In this document: piece after piece, positions 33,497-52,754 of the stretch
Position numbering within the stretch: position 1 is the first letter of the stretch
Layout of the letters: every line of letters starts with the position of its first letter
DNA from: Pseudoalteromonas espejiana DSM 9414
GTDB taxonomy: Bacteria > Pseudomonadota > Gammaproteobacteria > Enterobacterales > Alteromonadaceae
Direction of reading: 5' to 3'
Assembly (NCBI RefSeq): GCF_002221525.1
Contig: NZ_CP011028.1
Coordinates: 1,189,001-1,253,000 of the forward strand
Length of the DNA: 64,000 nucleotides
Notes under the pieces: generated by a model
Databases searched by the model: none
What the model was told of the DNA's origin: nothing
What the model saw: only the letters and a program-made list of their open reading frames with translations
Translations under genes and position numbers: made by a program

Positions 33497-33511
33497 ATTG
33501 CAAATTGCAAA
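33497..33511. promoter_or_regulatory. LuxO-type operator, site 1
   Basis: ATTGCA-AAT-TGCAAA. It matches the Vibrio LuxO site TTGCA-W3-TGCAA exactly in its 13-base core. It lies about 73 bases upstream of a candidate sigma-54 -24 box for the response-regulator gene at 33636. Three more copies occur in the next 7 kb. Confidence 0.65.
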
Positions 33512-33581
33512 AGTTTTCCCGACTAAACCCCCGATATATTTTTATATAAAGAAATTCATAGCCTTAATTGGACTTATTTTA

Positions 33582-33598
33582 GTGGCATATAAATTGAT
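33582..33598 (+). promoter_or_regulatory. Candidate sigma-54 promoter of the REC-protein operon
   Basis: GTGGCATATAAATTGAT fits TTGGCACRN4TTGCW with the GG and the -12 dinucleotide position correctly spaced (12 bases). The -12 GC is GA here, a real weakness. The start of transcription would be near 33609, 27 bases before the ATG. Confidence 0.45.
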
Positions 33599-33635
33599 TA
33601 TTAAAGCCATAAGCTAGATTAACTAGGATTTTGTG

Positions 33636-34673
33636 ATGAGTGATAACAGTCATGTTTTAGAAGTAATACAAGGGGTGATTGCACGTCATTGCCTAACAAC
33701 AGATAGTGATGTAGCTATTACACTTATAAATAAATTGCAGTGTAATTATATATGTTTGCAGGTATCACCAGAGCAAATGATCACACAATGCGAAGCGTTT
33801 ATTCTGCCTTCACTCTCCCAAGCCAAAAGTAGTTTTGTTTTAACAGTAGAAGCAAATTTACAAGGCATCAATATTAACTATTGGGTAGATGCCAACCCAA
33901 ATATGCACACCATTGATATCCATGGCTTATTGGCAACCAGAGAGCCAGTTTCATACGACGATATAAAAAAACAACACCTTACAGTACAAAGCCACAAATC
34001 CGACATAATTGAAAATCTTAACTTTTTATCAGAGGTAACAGAGCAAAATTATGGTTTTAATTTCTTATCATCAGGTGAGCAAAATCACGAACAACTTACC
34101 ATTAGTGATATGCGTCAACTTAGCGGGCAAGTGCTGTTAAACAGCTTATCGACTGCTAGCGCAACAGATAACACAATAAAACTCTGTAGTTTTGATGCTT
34201 TGAGCGATTTACAGGAGCACCAATTATCAACTCAAGCAATTTTAGCATGGCCATTCTTTGATACCGATTTAATCGCTGTTATGAGCACCTTGCAGGCTCA
34301 AAGTCGATTATCTGTGTTAGTTGCAGATGACAGTTTACCAAGCCAAGTGGCAACAAAGGTGATGCTGGAAATGCTGGGTTGCTCTGTGACATGTGCGGAA
34401 AATGGTTCAAGCGCCTTGTTAATTGCGCAACAAGAGTCGTTTGACTTGTTACTTTTAGATGAACGTATGCCAGGCATGTTTGGCAGTGACGTGGCGCAGC
34501 AGTTAAACAAACAAAATACGCCTAATAATGAAACACCAAAAGTGATTTTAACGGGTATTACAGAGGAGCAAGAAATTGCCCAGCTGTTTGATAAGGGAGT
34601 GACCCACTACCTTCAAAAGCCCGTTACAAAGGCAGTGCTAGAAGAGTTCATTAAGCCTTGGCAGGCTGCTTAA
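33636..34673 (+). CDS. Response-regulator protein with unknown N-terminal domain
   Basis: 345 residues. The start is taken at the ATG 7 bases after AGGA; a GTG one codon earlier is possible. The C-terminal receiver domain (about 228-345) has LVADDS (acidic pair), phospho-acceptor Asp275 in LLLLDERMPG, Thr in VILTGIT and Lys in YLQKPVT. The first ~225 residues match no family I know; they are mixed alpha/beta with no membrane segment or helix-turn-helix. It has no recognisable output domain, so it may be a phosphate sink, a single-domain relay or a protein-interaction regulator. First gene of an operon with the isochorismatase-like protein and the hybrid kinase. Confidence 0.8.
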   Translation: MSDNSHVLEVIQGVIARHCLTTDSDVAITLINKLQCNYICLQVSPEQMITQCEAFILPSLSQAKSSFVLTVEANLQGININYWVDANPNMHTIDIHGLLATREPVSYDDIKKQHLTVQSHKSDIIENLNFLSEVTEQNYGFNFLSSGEQNHEQLTISDMRQLSGQVLLNSLSTASATDNTIKLCSFDALSDLQEHQLSTQAILAWPFFDTDLIAVMSTLQAQSRLSVLVADDSLPSQVATKVMLEMLGCSVTCAENGSSALLIAQQESFDLLLLDERMPGMFGSDVAQQLNKQNTPNNETPKVILTGITEEQEIAQLFDKGVTHYLQKPVTKAVLEEFIKPWQAA

Positions 34674-34694
34674 AAGCAAATTAAGGAAAGCATT

Positions 34695-35288
34695 ATGAGT
34701 GATTTATCTAAAACAGCATTGTTACTTATCGGTTTTCAAAACGATTATTTTTCATCTGATGGAATCTTATATGAAGTTATTGAGGAGTCTTCAAGGGTGA
34801 CGGGAGTGGTAAACAATACATTGTCTTTGCTTGAGAGGCATATTGAAGATTTTGCACTGGTTCTCAGTACACCTATCCACTTTACACAAGATTACAGTGA
34901 ACTTAAAAACCCAATAGGTATTTTAAAAGTAATAGCCGAGGTTGGGGCATTTAAAGCCGGTTCTTATGGCGCGCAAGGCATTAAAGAGCTTGAAAAATAC
35001 GCTCAGCGTATTAAACAAATACCAGGCAAACGCGGGCTAAACGCTTTTACACATACAGAGCTTGGTGCTGCGCTAACTAAAAACAACATCACTGATATTG
35101 TTTTAGCGGGCACTGTTACCTCAATTTGCATAGATTCAACGGCGCGTTCAGCAGTTGAGCTTGGCTTTAATGTAACGGTTTTAAGTGACTGTACCTCGAG
35201 TAGAACACCATTTGAGCAATCATTTTATTGCGAAGAAGTTTTTCCTCTATACGCCACAGTGTGTAGCCATCAAGAACTAATTGACTAA
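34695..35288 (+). CDS. Isochorismatase-fold protein lacking the catalytic Asp
   Basis: 197 residues. Cysteine hydrolase (isochorismatase-like) fold, with nucleophile Cys145 (AGTVTSICIDSTARSA) and the triad Lys112 (PGKRGLNAF). The first strand reads ALLLIGFQNDYF, where active members such as nicotinamidase PncA have D in IVDVQNDF; here that Asp is Gly13. Asp17 corresponds to the second, structural Asp. The triad is therefore incomplete, suggesting a non-catalytic sensor or regulator, or altered chemistry. It lies 21 bases after the REC protein and directly before the hybrid kinase, so it may sense or bind a ligand for the signalling system (inference). Confidence 0.8.
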   Translation: MSDLSKTALLLIGFQNDYFSSDGILYEVIEESSRVTGVVNNTLSLLERHIEDFALVLSTPIHFTQDYSELKNPIGILKVIAEVGAFKAGSYGAQGIKELEKYAQRIKQIPGKRGLNAFTHTELGAALTKNNITDIVLAGTVTSICIDSTARSAVELGFNVTVLSDCTSSRTPFEQSFYCEEVFPLYATVCSHQELID

Positions 35289-35298
35289 TGAGGCGTAT

Positions 35299-38106
35299 AT
35301 GGAAGAGAAAGATGAGCTACAAGTTCAAGTACATTACGCGTTAATAGAGCAGCTTTCTGCTAATACGCGCAGGCAATCTAAGTTATTAGCATTACTAGAT
35401 GAGTGCGTGTTTGAATGCGATAAAAACTTAGCATTTAGTTACGTAAATGAAGCTTGGCAAAGTAAGCTCGGTTTTACATCCCCAATGCTAATAGGTAAAA
35501 AAATAACATCGCTGCTAACTAAGCAAGATGCTTTAAAACTTAGTGCGTATACATGCTCTGTACTTGATGGTGAATCAAATACCAGTTTAGAACTTAAAAT
35601 AAATAATAGTGATGGTTTAGCTAATTGGTTTGAGCTTCGTCTAGCGTGTGATGACAATGGTGGCTTTATAGGGTCGTTACACGACATCCAAAGACATAAA
35701 GATTTTCAGTATCTTCTCACCCAGCAGCAAGAGTACGCAAAGCGTTTATCTTTAGTCGCCAGCCACACAAATAATTTAGTTATTATTACCGACCAATTTG
35801 GCAAAATTGAGTGGGTAAATAAAAGCTTTGAAACATTAACCAGTTATAGGTGCGAGGAAGTTATAGGGCTGAGTCCTGGGAAATTACTACAAGGACCGAA
35901 AACTAATTTAGCATCTCGTCAGTTAATGTCTAAAGCGGTTAAAAATGGTCAGCCTTTTCAAATAGAAACAGTTAATTACGATAAATATAACAATGAATAC
36001 TGGGTTGCAATAGATGCCACGCCAGTAAAAGATGAAAACGATAAAGTTAGGCATTTTATAGCAATTGAAACAAACATTACGCAGCGAGTTAAAGCCGAAC
36101 AAGCAATGGCAGAGATAGAATACAACTATCATTCAGTGGTCGATAATATCCCTGAGATTGTTTTAAGGTTAGATGAGCAGGGTAAACTTTTGTTTATGAA
36201 TAAAGCGTGGCAAGACTTTTTTCAGATAGATATAGCCAAAAATATAGGCCTGCCAATTGATGATTTTATAGTTACTGAAGATGCGCAGCAGGTTAGGGAT
36301 GTTTTAAACCGGTATCAAAATGGACACCGCGGTATAGAGCGATTTGATGTACGTTTTACTAAGACTACAGGTGAAGAGAACTGGGTTGAAATGACCCTTA
36401 CGCCAATAAAGTCTTATAACGACGACAGCTTAACATCAATAGCAGCAACCGTTGTTGATATTCAAGAGCGTGTAGTGGCAGAGCAAATATTACTTGATGC
36501 TAAGCACCAAGCAGAAACCTTAGCCGAATCAAAAAGTCGTTTTATGGCCAATATTAGCCATGAAATACGTACGCCGCTTAATGCGGTAATAGGGTGTGCC
36601 GACATTCTGCACGACACTGGGCTAACTACTGAGCAAAAACGTTATACACAAATGATAAAAACAAGCTCAGATGCGTTGCTTAGTATTTTAGACGATGTTT
36701 TAACTTACTCGCGTTTTGAAGCGCAAGCTATCTCTATAGATAACCAACCCTTTAGCCTCGACACCTGCCTAGAAGAAGCAATCGATATTGTTAGCGAAAG
36801 CGCCGTACAAAAAGGCCTAGAATTAATATTCGATTTTTACCCCGATGTGCCTGCACAAGTAGTGGGGGATCATGTGCGGATTAGGCAAATTGCTATAAAC
36901 CTGCTTTCTAATGCAATTAAATTTACGCAAACCGGCTCGCTTATTATAAAAGCAAAATGTATAGAATTTGATAATAATAATTTTACCCTGCAACTTAGCA
37001 TTAAAGATACTGGGATAGGCATAGCTAAAAATAAACTTGATAGCATGTTTAAGCCATTTATTCAGTCAGACAACTCAATTACCAGAGAGCACGGTGGTAG
37101 TGGTTTAGGGTTAGCTATTTGCAAGCAAATATGTGATGCAGCTGGTGGGAGTATTTCGGTAAGTTCTGAGCTCAACAAAGGCAGTGAGTTTATTGTAAAT
37201 TACCCACTTTCAATTGATACAACCGACAGTGTGCAAAGGGAAGGGTTTTCGGCTAGAAGCAAAAAGCCGCAAGTATGGATATTTAGTGGCTACTCTATTT
37301 TAAATCAAGCGATAGAGCATATGCTAACGCGTCACTCGATTGGTTTTACCGGGTTTAGCGATATTAATGCGTTACCCAAAAATATTATCACACCGGACGC
37401 TATTGTTGTTACTAATAAAGATGATTTACTGACAGCCGAACATTTTTTAAAAAGTTATGACTGCCTAAATAAGCCCTGTCTTTTGTTTATAGATTTGCTT
37501 GGTAAAACTCAAAAAGCAGCTGTCCCTAGCGATGGAATGTTAAGAGTTAATGGCCCTTTTAAACCTTCACATTTACCTCGTGCTATTTCTATATTAGACG
37601 AACAGTTGTTTCATTTAGATATAATTTTTACGAATAAAAAAGATACAGCTATCAACGGGCAAAAAAAGGTTAATCAGCCATTTAAAGGTACGTATGTTCT
37701 TGTAGTTGAAGATAATAAAAACAATCAAATTGTCGTTAAACAACTCTTAGAGCAACAAGGCTGCTCTGTAGAAATAGCAAATAACGGACAAGAAGCACTC
37801 GAAAAAGTGCAATATCAAACAGTTGACCTAATTTTTATGGATATACAAATGCCAATTTTAGATGGTATTTCTGCAACAAAAAAAATAAGGGAGTTATCTA
37901 TAGTTACGCCAATTATTGCTTTAACGGCAAATGCAATTCATGGCGATAAAGAGCGTTTTATTGAAGCAGGTATGAATGACTATTTAGCAAAACCTATTAT
38001 TGGTAATAAGCTTAACGCGTTATTAGATAAGCACCTGCCTAAATTAAGTAACTTAAAACATACAAAACTTGAGCGTATGAGCGAAATATGGACGCTTTTA
38101 AAATAA
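35299..38106 (+). CDS. Three-PAS hybrid histidine kinase
   Basis: 935 residues. The ATG at 35299 has TGAGG five bases upstream; a TTG at 35281 overlapping the preceding gene is the alternative. No membrane helix is seen, so it is cytoplasmic. PAS domains lie at about 40-135, 150-270 (NLVIITDQFGKIEWVNKSFETLTSYRCEEVIG, flavin-PAS-like wording but no definite LOV Cys motif) and 280-400. HisKA has phospho-acceptor His421 (ANISHEIRTPLNAVIG). HATPase has NLLSNAIKFTQTG, DTGIGIA and GSGLGLAICKQI. A degenerate receiver-like segment spans about 660-775, and an intact receiver has Asp848 (LIFMDIQMPILDG). It lacks an HPt domain; the nearby HPt gene at 40109 is the likely next step. Confidence 0.92.
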   Translation: MEEKDELQVQVHYALIEQLSANTRRQSKLLALLDECVFECDKNLAFSYVNEAWQSKLGFTSPMLIGKKITSLLTKQDALKLSAYTCSVLDGESNTSLELKINNSDGLANWFELRLACDDNGGFIGSLHDIQRHKDFQYLLTQQQEYAKRLSLVASHTNNLVIITDQFGKIEWVNKSFETLTSYRCEEVIGLSPGKLLQGPKTNLASRQLMSKAVKNGQPFQIETVNYDKYNNEYWVAIDATPVKDENDKVRHFIAIETNITQRVKAEQAMAEIEYNYHSVVDNIPEIVLRLDEQGKLLFMNKAWQDFFQIDIAKNIGLPIDDFIVTEDAQQVRDVLNRYQNGHRGIERFDVRFTKTTGEENWVEMTLTPIKSYNDDSLTSIAATVVDIQERVVAEQILLDAKHQAETLAESKSRFMANISHEIRTPLNAVIGCADILHDTGLTTEQKRYTQMIKTSSDALLSILDDVLTYSRFEAQAISIDNQPFSLDTCLEEAIDIVSESAVQKGLELIFDFYPDVPAQVVGDHVRIRQIAINLLSNAIKFTQTGSLIIKAKCIEFDNNNFTLQLSIKDTGIGIAKNKLDSMFKPFIQSDNSITREHGGSGLGLAICKQICDAAGGSISVSSELNKGSEFIVNYPLSIDTTDSVQREGFSARSKKPQVWIFSGYSILNQAIEHMLTRHSIGFTGFSDINALPKNIITPDAIVVTNKDDLLTAEHFLKSYDCLNKPCLLFIDLLGKTQKAAVPSDGMLRVNGPFKPSHLPRAISILDEQLFHLDIIFTNKKDTAINGQKKVNQPFKGTYVLVVEDNKNNQIVVKQLLEQQGCSVEIANNGQEALEKVQYQTVDLIFMDIQMPILDGISATKKIRELSIVTPIIALTANAIHGDKERFIEAGMNDYLAKPIIGNKLNALLDKHLPKLSNLKHTKLERMSEIWTLLK

Positions 38107-38353
38107 AGCTGCTATCACCCATTTTTAGTGCTTAGTCTTGGTTTTAGGCTCTTTAGCTATAAATTAGGTAAAGGCTTTAAAAATGACGCTTTTATCAAAA
38201 TGCTAGAGAGGGCTTATTTATTATTCTTAAAATTGTATTTCTTCTATTTAAAGGCATGTAAACGGTAAAATAATTAAAAAACGGCACAAAAACTAATTAC
38301 TTTTAACTAACAACTAAAACTCACTTAGTTGTTAGGTATGTTTTTTAAATTGA

Positions 38354-38368
38354 TTTGCATTTTGCAAA
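38354..38368. promoter_or_regulatory. LuxO-type operator, site 2
   Basis: TTTGCA-TTT-TGCAAA: perfect 6-base inverted arms with 3-base A/T centre, containing TTGCA-W3-TGCAA. It is about 129 bases upstream of the -24 box of the following sigma-54 promoter, a usual distance for an enhancer-binding protein. Confidence 0.7.
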
Positions 38369-38494
38369 CCATAATGACACTTCACATTAACTACTCTAAT
38401 AAAGTTTAAATAAAATTTTCGTTAATCATTTTAATTTAAACTTAAACCTCTGAATTTTATGCTATTAAATTTTTTAATTAAAAACTTCGTCGTT

Positions 38495-38511
38495 TTGGCA
38501 CAGCCTTCGCA
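38495..38511 (+). promoter_or_regulatory. Sigma-54 promoter of the 96-residue membrane protein gene
   Basis: TTGGCACAGCCTTCGCA matches the consensus TTGGCACRN4TTGCW at all but one position, with GG and GC exactly 12 apart. Expected start near 38522, about 68 bases before the ATG at 38590. Best of the sigma-54 promoters in the window. Confidence 0.7.
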
Positions 38512-38589
38512 ATAGTACAGGTAAGTAAAGCGTTTTCATCGCTGATATGTAATCAAATTTAGTCGCTATTAATTTTAAAGGTACTCATT

Positions 38590-38880
38590 ATGCAAACAAA
38601 CACTAAAGTAAAACAGCAACCAAAAAAGATGTCTTTTGTATTAACACCTGAATTAATGGTTCTGTCTATTATTATCGTTGCTGCAGTAATAGTAGGTACA
38701 ACAGCGTTAAGAGGCACAGTGACAATTGAGCCCGTTAATAAAGCGAATACTGAAATTTTTGCTACTAAGTACAATTCATCTACCCCAAATACCAATGACC
38801 TTGAAAGTGAATCGTTAAATTTCGCGCAAAATATCGAACAGCAAAACGCAAATCAAAACACGCAAGGTTTGAATAACTAA
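38590..38880 (+). CDS. Unrecognised small single-span membrane protein
   Basis: 96 residues. A basic N-terminus (TKVKQQPKKMSF) is followed by one transmembrane helix (about 22-42, LMVLSIIIVAAVIVGTTAL). A ~50-residue polar Asn/Gln/Ser/Thr-rich tail would lie outside the cytoplasm. ATG preceded by AAAGGT at 38577-38582. No family recognised. It is the direct target of the best sigma-54 promoter in the LuxO-like locus and has its own terminator, so it is a monocistronic, specifically regulated message. An envelope or surface role is possible but unsupported. Confidence 0.75.
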   Translation: MQTNTKVKQQPKKMSFVLTPELMVLSIIIVAAVIVGTTALRGTVTIEPVNKANTEIFATKYNSSTPNTNDLESESLNFAQNIEQQNANQNTQGLNN

Positions 38881-38910
38881 TTAATACTTCTCCTTTAGTA
38901 TTTACTTTTC

Positions 38911-38943
38911 AGCTGGCTCTAAGCAATTAGGCCAGCTTTTTTA
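38911..38943 (+). terminator. Terminator after the 96-residue protein gene
   Basis: AGCTGGC and GCCAGCT arms with a 13-base loop, then six T's. Confidence 0.8.
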
Positions 38944-39027
38944 TGCTCTCTCAAAAATAGGCTTTTGTAATTAATTCACTCTCACCTAAAAATTAGCTTT
39001 AAGCCATCAACTTGCAATTCAGTGTGA

Positions 39028-39042
39028 TTTGCAAAATGCAAA
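39028..39042. promoter_or_regulatory. LuxO-type operator, site 3
   Basis: TTTGCA-AAA-TGCAAA, perfect inverted arms. It lies about 89 bases upstream of the candidate sigma-54 -24 box for the EAL gene at 39189. Confidence 0.7.
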
Positions 39043-39128
39043 AAAGTGTAACTAATTGAGGTTAGGTTTTTTTGTTTATGTAGCCGGTTGTTTTTAAAGA
39101 CTTTATTTTTATTTGTTAGGGGGCGAAT

Positions 39129-39145
39129 ATGGTCTGCAATTTGCT
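39129..39145 (+). promoter_or_regulatory. Candidate sigma-54 promoter of the EAL gene
   Basis: ATGGTCTGCAATTTGCT: perfect -12 element (TTGCT) and correct 12-base spacing from GG, but a weak -24 (TGGTCT for TGGCAC). Transcription would start near 39156, 33 bases before the ATG. Confidence 0.5.
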
Positions 39146-39188
39146 ATTTACAAGTAGTTCTCGTGAGTCATTAATTTTGGAGTAAATT

Positions 39189-40001
39189 ATGAATGCTTTT
39201 AATACCTTAGAGTCTATAAATACGGTCAATATGGCTCGGTGGCATGAACTTGAGCAAATAATGGCTCACTCTATGAAAAACCATTACTTTAAAATGGTAT
39301 ATCAACCACTTGTGTCGTTAACCTCGGGTCAACTTATGGGCTTTGAGTCTTTAGTTCGATGTGAGTCTCCTCGCTACGGTATTGTTGGACCTGATGAATT
39401 TATTCCGCATGTAGAACAGTCAGGAATGATACTCGATTTAGGTGATTGGATATTAGAGCAAACCCTGCACGACTTTAGCAAAATGAAAAAAATAGGGATG
39501 GAGGGCATCACTATTTCTTTAAATATTTCACCGGTACAAATTATTGAAGGTGATGTGTTTTCTAAGGTAATGAAGCTGCTAAGAAAACACAATGTTGATC
39601 CGGCTTCAATAAAAGTAGAATTAACTGAAACGGCTTTGATCCATAGCCCTCATAAAATTGCTAAAACCTTCGAGCAATTTAATAAAGAAGGTGTAAAGGT
39701 TTGGCTGGATGATTTTGGGACTGGCTACGCCTCGCTTGGCTTATTGAGGCAGTTTAATATTGATGGATTGAAAATTGACCGCAGCTTTATTAATGGAATT
39801 GCAACTAATAATGAAGACTTTACTTTATGCAGTGCGATTATAGCTATGGCCCAGCGATTAGGCTTAGAAACGATAGCAGAGGGGATTGAACAGCGAGAGC
39901 AATTACAAATCCTTGAACAGTTAGGCTGCGATGTAGCGCAAGGTTATTTATTAGGTAGACCAAGTAGTTTGGAAAATAGCACAGCAACGTGGGTTAAATG
40001 A
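39189..40001 (+). CDS. Stand-alone EAL-domain c-di-GMP phosphodiesterase
   Basis: 270 residues, an EAL domain with almost nothing else. The signature is ESL in GFESLVRCES (Glu retained, Ala to Ser). The remaining catalytic set is present: NISPVQ, VELTETALI, WLDDFGTGYASLGLLRQF, LKIDRSFI and ETIAEGIEQ. It should hydrolyse c-di-GMP to pGpG. The ribosome site TTGGAGTAAATT is good. Flanked by the LuxO-type operators at 39028 and 40024, so the LuxO-like activator probably lowers c-di-GMP through it. Confidence 0.9.
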   Translation: MNAFNTLESINTVNMARWHELEQIMAHSMKNHYFKMVYQPLVSLTSGQLMGFESLVRCESPRYGIVGPDEFIPHVEQSGMILDLGDWILEQTLHDFSKMKKIGMEGITISLNISPVQIIEGDVFSKVMKLLRKHNVDPASIKVELTETALIHSPHKIAKTFEQFNKEGVKVWLDDFGTGYASLGLLRQFNIDGLKIDRSFINGIATNNEDFTLCSAIIAMAQRLGLETIAEGIEQREQLQILEQLGCDVAQGYLLGRPSSLENSTATWVK

Positions 40002-40023
40002 TCTATAAAGTGGTATGTCTTGA

Positions 40024-40038
40024 TTTGCAAAATGCGAA
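40024..40038. promoter_or_regulatory. LuxO-type operator, site 4 (HPt/activator operon)
   Basis: TTTGCA-AAA-TGCGAA: one mismatch from the perfect palindrome, 70 bases before the HPt ATG. No sigma-54 boxes follow. Instead the operator overlaps TTGCAA (40025-40030), a possible -35, with TATTCT at 40047-40052 after 16 bases. The layout suggests autorepression of the HPt/activator operon. Confidence 0.55.
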
Positions 40039-40108
40039 AAACAACTTATTCTAAAAGTATAAAACATAAAATACAGCTGTTTAGCACAATAATAAATAAA
40101 GGCCTTTT

Positions 40109-40480
40109 ATGCCAATACCAGAAGAATACATCGATAATAGTATTACCCAGTCACATGTTTTGGCTCAGCTTGAGCAAGACGTTGGCTCACTTACGCTTGT
40201 TAGGTTGGTAAACTTATTTATTAATGAACTTGAAGAAATGCTTACACGCTTAGACGCTGCTATTGAAGAGCAAAATGTAGATAAAATTAAAGAGATAATG
40301 CATGTCCTTAAAAATTCTGCAGCGCTTTATGGAGCTATGACGCTCGCGGCCCTTGCAAGTCAGCTACATGATTCACCTCCTGTAAATATCAAAGAGAATA
40401 TTAGCGCTGCACAAATAGTTCAGCATAACTTAGAAAAAACCCATGATGCGTATCAGCTTATGGCAAAAAATATTACCTAA
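40109..40480 (+). CDS. HPt-domain phosphotransfer protein (LuxU-like role)
   Basis: 123 residues, a single HPt four-helix bundle. Phospho-acceptor His65 lies in IMHVLKNSAALYGA, close to the consensus HxLKGSAxxxGA. It would take phosphate from the receiver of the hybrid kinase at 35299 and pass it to Asp58 of the LuxO-like activator, 11 bases downstream. This mirrors the luxU-luxO relay of Vibrio, although there the order is luxO-luxU. AAAGG ribosome site. SixA, an HPt phosphatase family member, is encoded at 20700. Confidence 0.85.
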   Translation: MPIPEEYIDNSITQSHVLAQLEQDVGSLTLVRLVNLFINELEEMLTRLDAAIEEQNVDKIKEIMHVLKNSAALYGAMTLAALASQLHDSPPVNIKENISAAQIVQHNLEKTHDAYQLMAKNIT

Positions 40481-40491
40481 GAGGCTGTGCT

Positions 40492-41886
40492 ATGAATCAA
40501 ACCAAACAAAAAGCGTTGGTGTATGTAGTAGAAGATAGTATTGCTAGTGGTGCACTATATGCTAGCCAATTAGAGCAAGCGGGGTATGAATGTAAACATT
40601 TTACAGACGGTTACTCTGCATTAGTTGCTATAAAAGAAGTTATGCCGGATGTAATTGTACAAGATGTATGTTTACCAGATATAAGCGGGCTTGAAGTTCT
40701 TCAGTTTGTTAAAAAGCAACCTACCCCAGCTAATGTAGTGATGATAACTTCTAACAGTTCTATTGATGTGGCCGTTGAGGCTATGCGCTTAGGTGGCTTC
40801 GATTTTTTAGAAAAGCCATTTTCAGGCCAGCGCCTAGTTAGCGCGGTAGAAAGTGCCTCTACCCAAAAAGAATCATTACCTCAAAATGTTCCTCAAGAAG
40901 AGTCTCACAGCGCATCTGGGTTTATTGGTGAATCTTTAGCGATGCAAACAGTTTTTAGGCTGTTAGATAGTGCCGCTCGAAGTAAAGCATGCGTATTTAT
41001 TACTGGCGAAAGCGGCACAGGTAAAGAGGTATGTGCACAAACGTTACATGATGCAAGCCCAAGAAATAAAGGTCCATTTATCGCGATAAACTGTGCCGCT
41101 ATTCCTGCGGACTTATTTGAGTCAGAATTTTTTGGCCATGTTAAAGGCGCTTTTAGCGGTGCATTAAGTGATAGAAAAGGTGCGGTAGAAGTTGCAAACG
41201 GAGGAACTTTATTTTTAGACGAATTATGCGAAATGGAGCTAAACCTGCAAGCTAAATTATTGCGGTTTTTGCAAACAGGTGTATTTAATCGTGTGGGCAG
41301 TAGCGAAGTTTTACACAGTAATGTAAGGCTTGTTTGTGCAACTAACCGTAGCCCTGTTGTAGAGGTTGCTGAAGGGCGATTCAGAGAAGATTTATACTAT
41401 AGACTTAATGTTATTCCTGTTAAATTACCGCCACTGAGAGAGCGTGGTAACGATATATTGCTACTTGCTCGACATGTTTTAAAACAAAAAAGTGAGAGTA
41501 ATGCAAAGCAGTTTATAGGTTTTTCACCAGAGGTAGAAAAGCTGTTTTGTAATTATGACTGGCCAGGAAATATCCGAGAGCTACAAAACGTAATTGAAAA
41601 TACAGTTGTGATTAATGAAGGCGAAGTCATCGAGCTAGATATGCTACCTAGCTCATTCGGGGTTGACTCTACCGCTTCTGTAAAAACAGCGAGTACACTA
41701 CCTGCAAACAACCCCACACAAGCAGGTGCGCTAATGGGTGTACATGACATAGAGCCATTATGGCAAATAGAAAAGCGTGCTATTGAATCTGCTATAGAAA
41801 TTTGTGACGATAACATTCCACTCGCCGCTGCTTATTTAGGTGTAAGTGCATCTACAATATATAGAAAAATAAAAGGTTGGTCTTAA
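40492..41886 (+). CDS. LuxO-like sigma-54-dependent response regulator
   Basis: 464 residues. Receiver domain 8-125 with acidic Glu14/Asp15 and phospho-acceptor Asp58 (VIVQDVCLPDISG), where the word order also resembles LuxO. AAA+ sigma-54 domain about 143-375 with Walker A GESGTGKE (172-179), sigma-54 contact loop GAFSGA (219-224; usual GAFTGA) and GGTLFLDELCEM (Walker B). Fis-type helix-turn-helix at the C-terminus (NIPLAAAYLGVSASTIYRKIKGW), which resembles LuxO's ending. Three LuxO-type operators upstream of sigma-54 promoters in the same locus, and one in front of its own operon, support a LuxO-like specificity. No Qrr gene or LuxR-type target is in the window. Confidence 0.9.
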   Translation: MNQTKQKALVYVVEDSIASGALYASQLEQAGYECKHFTDGYSALVAIKEVMPDVIVQDVCLPDISGLEVLQFVKKQPTPANVVMITSNSSIDVAVEAMRLGGFDFLEKPFSGQRLVSAVESASTQKESLPQNVPQEESHSASGFIGESLAMQTVFRLLDSAARSKACVFITGESGTGKEVCAQTLHDASPRNKGPFIAINCAAIPADLFESEFFGHVKGAFSGALSDRKGAVEVANGGTLFLDELCEMELNLQAKLLRFLQTGVFNRVGSSEVLHSNVRLVCATNRSPVVEVAEGRFREDLYYRLNVIPVKLPPLRERGNDILLLARHVLKQKSESNAKQFIGFSPEVEKLFCNYDWPGNIRELQNVIENTVVINEGEVIELDMLPSSFGVDSTASVKTASTLPANNPTQAGALMGVHDIEPLWQIEKRAIESAIEICDDNIPLAAAYLGVSASTIYRKIKGWS

Positions 41887-45879: not shown

Positions 45880-45956
<77 letters not shown>

Positions 45957-52411: not shown

Positions 52412-52484
52412 ACGCCCGCTTAATCGTTTTGGCTGAATTAGTGATCGGCTAAAGCACCTATTAAATTTAACTTTTGGAGTTATT

Positions 52485-52754
52485 ATGTCACTAAGCAATC
52501 AAGAAAAAATCGATATCATTGCTAAATTTGCACGTGCTGAAGGCGACACTGGTTCACCTGAAGTACAAGTAGCTTTACTTACTTTTGATATCAACAAGCT
52601 TCAAGGTCACTTTGCTGACCACAAGCATGACTTCCACTCACGTCGTGGTCTGCTTCGTAAAGTAAGTACTCGCCGTAAATTGCTTGATTACCTTAAAGGT
52701 AAAGATATCTCGCGTTATACTGCGTTAATCCAAGAGCTTGGCCTACGTCGCTAA
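52485..52754 (+). CDS. rpsO: 30S ribosomal protein S15
   Basis: 89 residues, standard length. The [14 protein letters not shown] and [24 protein letters not shown] segments are S15 signatures. Binds 16S rRNA central domain. GGAGTTATT ribosome site. Followed by a terminator but in a conserved rpsO-pnp order. Confidence 0.97.

Follow-up and report, generated by a model that had tools for sequence, protein, structure and literature searches.

A LuxO/SypG-like phosphorelay and its predicted control of a divergent Tad pilus in Pseudoalteromonas espejiana

Genes of the signalling locus

Here, we describe a locus of Pseudoalteromonas espejiana DSM 9414 that is probably the regulatory part of a Tad-pilus system divided between two loci. 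It occupies positions 33497..41886 of the window, a 64-kb stretch of a 4.5-Mb genome of two contigs (G000), and comprises seven genes, all on the + strand and all found at the places and with the domains given by an initial annotation. REC1 (33636-34673; list of open reading frames (ORFs) and domain search) combines an N-terminal region without an assigned domain with a C-terminal receiver domain, ISO (34695-35288; domain search) is an isochorismatase-fold protein, and HK (35299-38106; domain search) is a hybrid kinase with three PAS domains, HisKA, HATPase_c and REC, lacking an HPt domain and, as judged by eye, any membrane segment; these three genes appear to share an operon under the control of the activator encoded downstream. 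PIL2 (38590-38880), previously described as a small membrane protein, is indeed present at 38590 and is now recognized as a pilin-like protein of 96 amino acids (aa), a paralogue of a pilin-like protein of a distant Tad locus (45% identity over 47 aa, E=2e-10); neither Pfam nor NCBIfam assigns PIL2 a family. EAL (39189-40001; domain search) is a stand-alone EAL protein with phosphodiesterase active-site motifs, HPT (40109-40480) is a LuxU-like phosphotransfer protein matched by Pfam Hpt, and ACT (40492-41886; domain search, NCBIfam, tree) is a LuxO/SypG-like sigma-54 activator in which REC, AAA+ and Fis-type helix-turn-helix domains are combined with a GAFTGA-type loop, as in sigma-54 response-regulator activators generally. 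The LuxU/LuxO-like make-up proposed earlier is borne out by these domain and NCBIfam matches.

Three of the proteins were compared with their orthologues. Among the motifs that we take to be catalytic in EAL proteins, ExLxR, the Asn motif, ELTE, DDFGTG, KID and AEG[IV]E are retained in 10/10 orthologues (own protein included) and QGY in 9/10, with QGF in the Marinomonas locus L149. The Asp-Lys-Cys triad of isochorismatase hydrolases, at the positions that we presume to form it, is incomplete in ISO: Lys and Cys are present, and Gly occupies the usual catalytic Asp position in all nine aligned orthologues, suggesting that ISO may bind rather than cleave; its closest relative in the PDB, 3kl2, has Glu at this position. 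In the 12 PIL2 sequences (own included), the residue preceding the hydrophobic stretch is Ser or Asn where the pilin has Gly, a replacement suggesting that PIL2 may stay in the membrane.

Operators and sigma-54-like promoters

Four operators of the form TTTGCA-N3-TGCAAA had been reported in the locus, and all four lie on the + strand as described. Operators 2 (TTTGCATTTTGCAAA, 38354..38368) and 3 (TTTGCAAAATGCAAA, 39028..39042) are exact, and operators 1 (ATTGCAAATTGCAAA, 33497..33511), which precedes the REC1-ISO-HK operon, and 4 (TTTGCAAAATGCGAA, 40024..40038), which precedes HPT, have one mismatch each. As had been suggested, they correspond to the published LuxO upstream activating sequence (UAS_LuxO) of Vibrio, TTGCAWWWTGCAA (PMC10162802; statements about cited publications refer throughout to the parts available), and three of the four show the LuxO arrangement of this sequence before sigma-54-like promoters. 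The three sigma-54-like promoters that accompany them, likewise on the + strand, are of unequal quality: those at 38496..38512 (TGGCACAGCCTTCGCAA, score 17.0) and 39130..39146 (TGGTCTGCAATTTGCTA, score 15.5) are good, whereas that of REC1 at 33583..33599 (TGGCATATAAATTGATT, score 14.5) has an imperfect -12 element. Operator 4 is followed by no sigma-54-like promoter; it looks as if it forms the -35 element of a sigma-70-like promoter (TTTGCA at 40024-40029, a spacing of 17 bp and TATTCT at 40047-40052), and because of this overlap the operator before HPT most likely marks autorepression. Across orthologous loci, the operator and the bases that follow it are the best-conserved block upstream of HPT. 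These readings of operator 4 and of the REC1 promoter modify the earlier interpretation, which is partly supported, while the observation beneath it is confirmed.

The signal in the window resides in the near-exact operators, since sites with one or two mismatches are no commoner there than in shuffles; such loose searches, at chance level in both window and genome, were not used as evidence. A weight matrix derived from the sites of six relatives, which are orthologous to the own sites and hence not independent of them, scores the four operators at 21.8-23.6 bits and the next site in the 64 kb at 11.64. Genome-wide, the exact pattern TTYGCAWWWTGCRAA occurs five times, versus two for its reversed control, with three sites in the window locus and two before two Tad-pilus operons. 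The exact pattern TTTGCANNNTGCAAA has three sites, two of them in the window locus, and with at most one mismatch it has 24, equal to the 24 of its reversed control; seven of these 24 have an A/T-only spacer, of which six lie in the window locus or the Tad locus. Near-exact operators are consequently not found at equal density throughout the genome, a distribution that had been named as one that would speak against the regulon. The seventh A/T-spaced site (G000:C1:2214895), located before a TonB-receptor-like gene, was left out for want of a good sigma-54-like site close by (the best, 14.5, is 316 bp on), and a site at C1:2562210, which sits within a coding frame, was likewise not taken as a target. 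As a reference for promoter scores, 338 of 4000 draws of 85-nt stretches of unrelated own DNA scored 14.5 or more; raising the threshold to 15, 15.5, 16.5 and 17 left 223, 115, 17 and 2 draws, respectively.

The distant Tad-pilus locus

The remaining operators, at G000:C1:1875052 and 1878093, each precede one operon of a Tad locus (L058, G000:C1:1866682-1877970) that lies ~650 kb from the window locus. The regulon therefore extends beyond the compact 8.4 kb proposed earlier, with these two operons as its other conserved, predicted targets. Operon one encodes, in order, the 129-aa pilin-like protein PIL1, a CpaB-like protein, a CpaF/TadA ATPase, two T2SSF proteins (tadB, tadC), a 388-aa large pilin-like protein whose N-terminus resembles that of PIL1, and HK2; operon two encodes a secretin and a TPR protein (tadD). 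The ATPase matches CpaF structures in the PDB (E about 1e-70) and has TIGR03819 as its best NCBIfam model (291 bits, cut-off 373), the best PDB match of the secretin is RcpA, the CpaB-like protein matches the CpaB model at E=5e-11 (42 bits, cut-off 71), and the TadB/TadC candidates are both T2SSF by Pfam, with no NCBIfam match. Searches of PIL1 and the large pilin-like protein against Pfam and NCBIfam returned no family. Since the ATPase matches CpaF and the secretin matches RcpA best, the sequences identify the locus as a divergent Tad system with a CpaF/TadA-type ATPase, an RcpA/CpaC secretin, CpaB and TadB/TadC. In HK2 (L058 686-3538), Pfam recognizes PAS_7, REC and, weakly, HisKA, but a HATPase domain is missing; the protein could be a degenerate kinase or act as a phosphatase.

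Conservation within Pseudoalteromonas

An ACT orthologue (63% or more identity) was detected in 14 of 108 Pseudoalteromonas genomes, 13 of which also carry the Tad secretin (absent in G063, split in G068, broken in G091). In the 94 genomes without ACT, no full-length secretin match was obtained, the best hit (E=2.6e-17) covering a partial secretin domain. PIL1 was found in 1/369 genomes of a class-wide sample, namely the own genome, and in 10/395 of a family sample, where four of the matches are weak and lie inside frames of about 900 aa in another genus and one (G063) is to PIL2 only. Operators and promoters were compared across 12 signalling loci (without G087 and G091) and 12 Tad loci (without G063 and G091), and the operators recur at matching places in all 12 signalling loci, in line with the conservation in relatives that had been proposed as a check: the best upstream match has 12-15 of 15 letters before each of REC1, PIL2, EAL and HPT in 12/12 loci (at least 14 of 15 for REC1), and 13-15 of 15 before both pilin and secretin in 12/12 Tad loci.

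A sigma-54-like site stands downstream of five of the six operator kinds, within narrow spacing ranges. Such sites are present in 12/12 loci for PIL2 (score 15.5-17, spacing 112-127 bp), EAL (15-16, 84-87 bp, 74 in G068), the pilin gene (16.5-17, 71-73 bp, 61 in G087) and the secretin gene (14.5-17, 60-61 or 73 bp), and in 11/12 for REC1 (14.5, with TTGA or TTGT at -12, 70-71 bp), the best site in G063 being a different one. Upstream of HPT, none was found in 12/12 loci (best score 7.5-11). Exact TTYGCAWWWTGCRAA operators occur in 64/108 genomes of the genus, including 14/14 ACT carriers, and some of those in genomes without ACT adjoin a Syp-like paralogue. Among the matches listed for five carriers, 21 of 22 exact operators lie inside the signalling or the Tad locus (own genome 5/5, G008 5/5, G005 4/4, G015 4/4, G013 3/4). 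In G005 (L107 344-2890), a truncated ACT gene adjoins two transposase-like ORFs, a natural loss of the regulator.

Phylogenetic placement of the regulator

Although LuxU and LuxO are the closest NCBIfam models of HPT and ACT, and LuxO is also the best PDB match of ACT, both proteins fall below the curated cut-offs: ACT scores 583 bits against the LuxO model NF041946 (cut-off 800, exceeded in 11/197 genomes of the order), and HPT scores 50.2 bits against the LuxU model NF041948 (cut-off 140). A maximum-likelihood tree was built from 42 sequences, with a midpoint root used for drawing only and a long-branch warning that includes Spongiibacter (L151); LuxO rows are those above the NCBIfam cut-off, and the labels 'VibSyp', 'PalSyp' and 'mid' were assigned in the present analysis. 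ACT falls within a 16-row clade (100/100) and the six LuxO rows within another (100/100), and the ACT clade is also separate from seven Syp-like Pseudoalteromonas rows and from three Vibrio-like Syp candidates; L201, labelled VibSyp, groups apart from the other three VibSyp rows. The earlier description of ACT as LuxO-like therefore holds for its make-up, whereas the tree places it in a sister lineage to LuxO and Syp-like regulators rather than in LuxO. Nor does it share the Syp grouping or the linked polysaccharide locus that mark SypG, since its clade is separate and no polysaccharide gene is among the seven. The two Pseudoalteromonas sub-lineages of ACT do not join in the tree, a pattern that fits a transfer between lineages.

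The recognition helix of ACT resembles that of LuxO. In the nine ACT-clade rows read, the GAFTGA loop takes the form GAFSGA (five) or GSFSGA (four), while nine other rows have GAFTGA. Proteins of 47-51% identity in three loci (L109, L110, L111) were rejected as orthologues representing the same regulator, given that these loci are polysaccharide loci by eye and that the tree separates them. In these three loci, the paralogue has STAS, HPt and export genes around it, as judged by eye, together with TTGCA-N3-TGCAA sites, a Syp-like arrangement outside Vibrio.

Linkage with Tad genes in other lineages

In G087, signalling and Tad genes form one run in the order REC1-ISO-HK-secretin-tadD-pilin-cpaB-cpaF-tadB-tadC-large pilin-like-HK2-EAL-HPt-activator. 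G348 has the same order, with an HK2 match that is not full and a doubled pilin-cpaB, and in G985 the signalling and Tad halves adjoin. ACT also stands beside Tad genes in Psychromonas SP041, Pseudomaricurvus alcaniphilus and Spongiibacter thalassae, so that the linkage extends over four genera plus the genus groups g8 and g326, apparently six genera. Of eight ACT genomes searched outside Pseudoalteromonas, five have both secretin and pilin and three have neither. Seen against these clusters, the window locus looks like a single cluster minus the Tad block between kinase and EAL, with PIL2 in its place.

Several further features of these clusters were observed. In G087, tadD and the pilin gene are separated by an ORF that looks TnpB-like by eye (L122 4794-6020), and the two pilin-cpaB copies of G348 (L193 16223-19655) have identical match statistics, apparently as a result of recent duplication. 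A Marinobacter fragment (L155) carries only ACT on 7.5 kb. Near ACT in Psychromonas, Marinomonas and G965 lie genes for a periplasmic binding protein (PhnD-like by eye) and a membrane hybrid kinase (L147 12168-15773; L150 11870-15497; L149 5129-8772; L203 4611-8256), a LuxP/LuxQ-like layout that is preceded in L147 and L150 by an operator and a sigma-54-like site. Elsewhere in the window, a ribosomal S15 leader RNA (52425-52541) and a tRNA-Met (45880-45956) are ordinary.

Proposed system and competing explanations

Taken together, these sequence data point to a LuxO/SypG-type phosphorelay, the third of its type, whose direct targets would be a divergent Tad pilus, a pilin-like protein, a cyclic di-GMP (c-di-GMP) phosphodiesterase and the relay's own sensor operon, and which probably represses itself; we assign this reading a probability of roughly 0.78. 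Judging from the domains, phosphate would travel from HK to the LuxU-like HPT and on to the receiver Asp of ACT; a second source may be HK2, a membrane-spanning hybrid-kinase-like protein encoded by the last gene of the Tad operon. Phosphorylated ACT would bind TTTGCA-W3-TGCAAA and activate sigma-54 promoters of five targets: the REC1-ISO-HK operon, as positive feedback; PIL2; EAL; the pilin-cpaB-cpaF-tadB-tadC-large pilin-like-kinase operon; and the secretin-tadD operon. Its likely control of its own sensor operon and of the EAL gene, as envisaged by the initial annotation, is supported. At its own promoter, ACT would sit over the -35 region and repress it. LuxO, too, represses itself in Vibrio. 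In an ancestor, all genes would have formed one cluster; here the Tad block is found ~650 kb away, and PIL2 would occupy its former place. The role would be surface attachment together with lowered c-di-GMP.

A number of observations weigh against this interpretation. Most important, ACT occurs without a Tad secretin or pilin in G965, in the genomes of L149 (Marinomonas) and L150 (Psychromonas) and, within Pseudoalteromonas, in G063; G091 has a broken secretin and no pilin match, and in G068 the secretin is split, the cpaB match stops short and the 14 kb covered contain no cpaF, tadB or tadC match. Together, these genomes are the main result against a purely pilus-specific role. In G005, ACT ends after about 317 residues and the operators remain. 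The Tad assignment is weakened by TadA and CpaB scores under the NCBIfam cut-offs, and tadZ, tadE/F/G, a prepilin peptidase and TadV were not seen within the Tad locus, the rest of the genome not having been searched; PIL2 lacks the usual Gly before its motif. On the regulatory side, the REC1 promoter has no GC at -12, chance could yield the REC1 and secretin promoter scores taken alone, the best-upstream-match step had no chance control, so that the argument there lies in like positions in orthologous loci, and the 14 carrier genomes of the genus are not independent. Finally, 50 of the 94 genomes without ACT hold at least one exact operator and up to six (G040, G043), and the reversed control equals or exceeds the operator count in G013 (5 vs 4), G015 (4 vs 4), G086 (4 vs 4) and G090 (5 vs 4). 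Because genomes without ACT and the reversed control reach like counts, it is operator placement, not number, that singles out the ACT carriers and serves as the evidence.

One alternative is a relay mainly controlling c-di-GMP and its own sensors, with the Tad operons captured secondarily or as one of several outputs. In G063, G965, L149 and L150, the REC, EAL, HPt and activator genes are kept (EAL split in G965), and in Psychromonas and Marinomonas the binding-protein and hybrid-kinase pair lies downstream, preceded in L147 and L150 by an operator. In the first-branching rows under the midpoint root, Spongiibacter and the G087/G091 pair, however, the cluster includes Tad genes or a broken secretin, and next to EAL in Marinomonas there is still a short stretch similar to the large pilin-like gene, apparently a remnant, so that Tad loss fits better than late capture and we consider this alternative unlikely.

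An ordinary LuxU/LuxO quorum-sensing relay of the genus, acting via Qrr small RNAs and touching mRNA genes as side targets, would explain why LuxU and LuxO are the best NCBIfam matches, why LuxO is the best PDB match and why the operator is the same as UAS_LuxO. It is at odds with the sub-threshold scores (50 vs 140 and 583 vs 800 bits) and the separate clade, as well as with the Tad secretin in 13/14 carriers, two of them broken. Moreover, a Qrr search that scored 150 of the 206-675 first-look candidates in each genome gave no match in 6/6 ACT genomes and four matches in each of 2/2 LuxO genomes, which agrees with the earlier proposal of probable direct action on mRNAs and makes such a relay distinctly improbable here. 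A Qrr gene hidden in the 38107-38589 gap was dropped as a candidate after this search of 150 candidates per genome. Least probable is that the operators belong to another regulator and lie near ACT by chance: they are predicted from sequence, and operators of a similar kind also occur close to the locus of the Syp-like paralogue in other Pseudoalteromonas, but the next-best match to ACT in the own genome reaches only 39% identity, the recognition helix is LuxO-like, and the operators accompany ACT genes through apparently six genera.

Relation to known systems

The phosphorelay described here shares with Vibrio LuxU-LuxO an HPt protein paired with a sigma-54 activator, the UAS TTGCAWWWTGCAA (PMC10162802) and a similar recognition helix, and differs from it in having no Qrr match among the candidates scored, predicted direct mRNA targets, a separate clade, a GAFSGA or GSFSGA loop and a PAS kinase within the gene group. 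SypG of Vibrio fischeri (RscS/SypF/SypG) is comparable as a LuxO-type activator that works with hybrid kinases and HPt and activates genes for surface structures at sigma-54 promoters, but its output is the syp polysaccharide instead of a Tad pilus, its UAS TTCTCANNNTGMDWN differs (PMC10162802), and it falls in a separate clade. The Syp-like locus of other Pseudoalteromonas, identified by eye, likewise differs in its polysaccharide output and its clade.

PprAB of Pseudomonas aeruginosa and CtrA of Caulobacter are regulators of Tad/Flp pili. In Pectobacterium, an OmpR-type two-component system regulates such pili (PMC3767616). All three resemble the present case in the two-component control of tad by a linked regulator; unlike ACT, they are not LuxO-type sigma-54 activators, and in the parts of the sources available no linked EAL or HPt is mentioned. 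In Aliivibrio salmonicida, many tad genes are upregulated when litR or rpoQ is mutated (PMC6420764), and an ainS mutant likewise shows increased expression of the tad operon (PMC6499059). There, the tad operon responds to the cascade that includes LuxO, yet the effect is reported for LitR, RpoQ and AinS and is indirect with respect to LuxO; the operon is canonical, with tadV, tadZ, tadF and tadG, and a direct LuxO-type operator at tad is not described in the available parts of these two papers. Quorum sensing is thus already known to be linked indirectly to a canonical tad operon. In Vibrio harveyi biofilm, the tad locus is induced and luxO is slightly down (PMC10820411). Among the matches listed from the full-text literature, which mostly excludes subscription papers, no report of direct action of a LuxO-type activator on a Tad locus was seen, the Aliivibrio salmonicida case being the nearest, and binding of such an activator at a Tad locus is not described in the available parts of PMC3767616, PMC10162802, PMC2680268, PMC10820411, PMC6499059 and PMC6420764.

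Biological significance

A bolder reading can be offered only tentatively. ACT would represent an undescribed third LuxO/SypG branch that serves a divergent Tad pilus exclusively and has moved with it between marine gammaproteobacterial families; PIL2, without the cleavage Gly, and ISO, without the catalytic Asp, would sense the state of the pilus in the membrane and in the cytosol, respectively, and the relay would tune pilus production and c-di-GMP breakdown by feedback. The predicted regulon is small and precise, with six operators and five promoters, and it joins three subjects usually studied apart, namely quorum-sensing-type phosphorelays, Tad pili and c-di-GMP. The comparison suggests that a near-identical operator code serves different outputs, small RNAs in Vibrio, a pilus in the present system and polysaccharide in Syp-like ones, and that one type of regulator may have been rewired at least three times.

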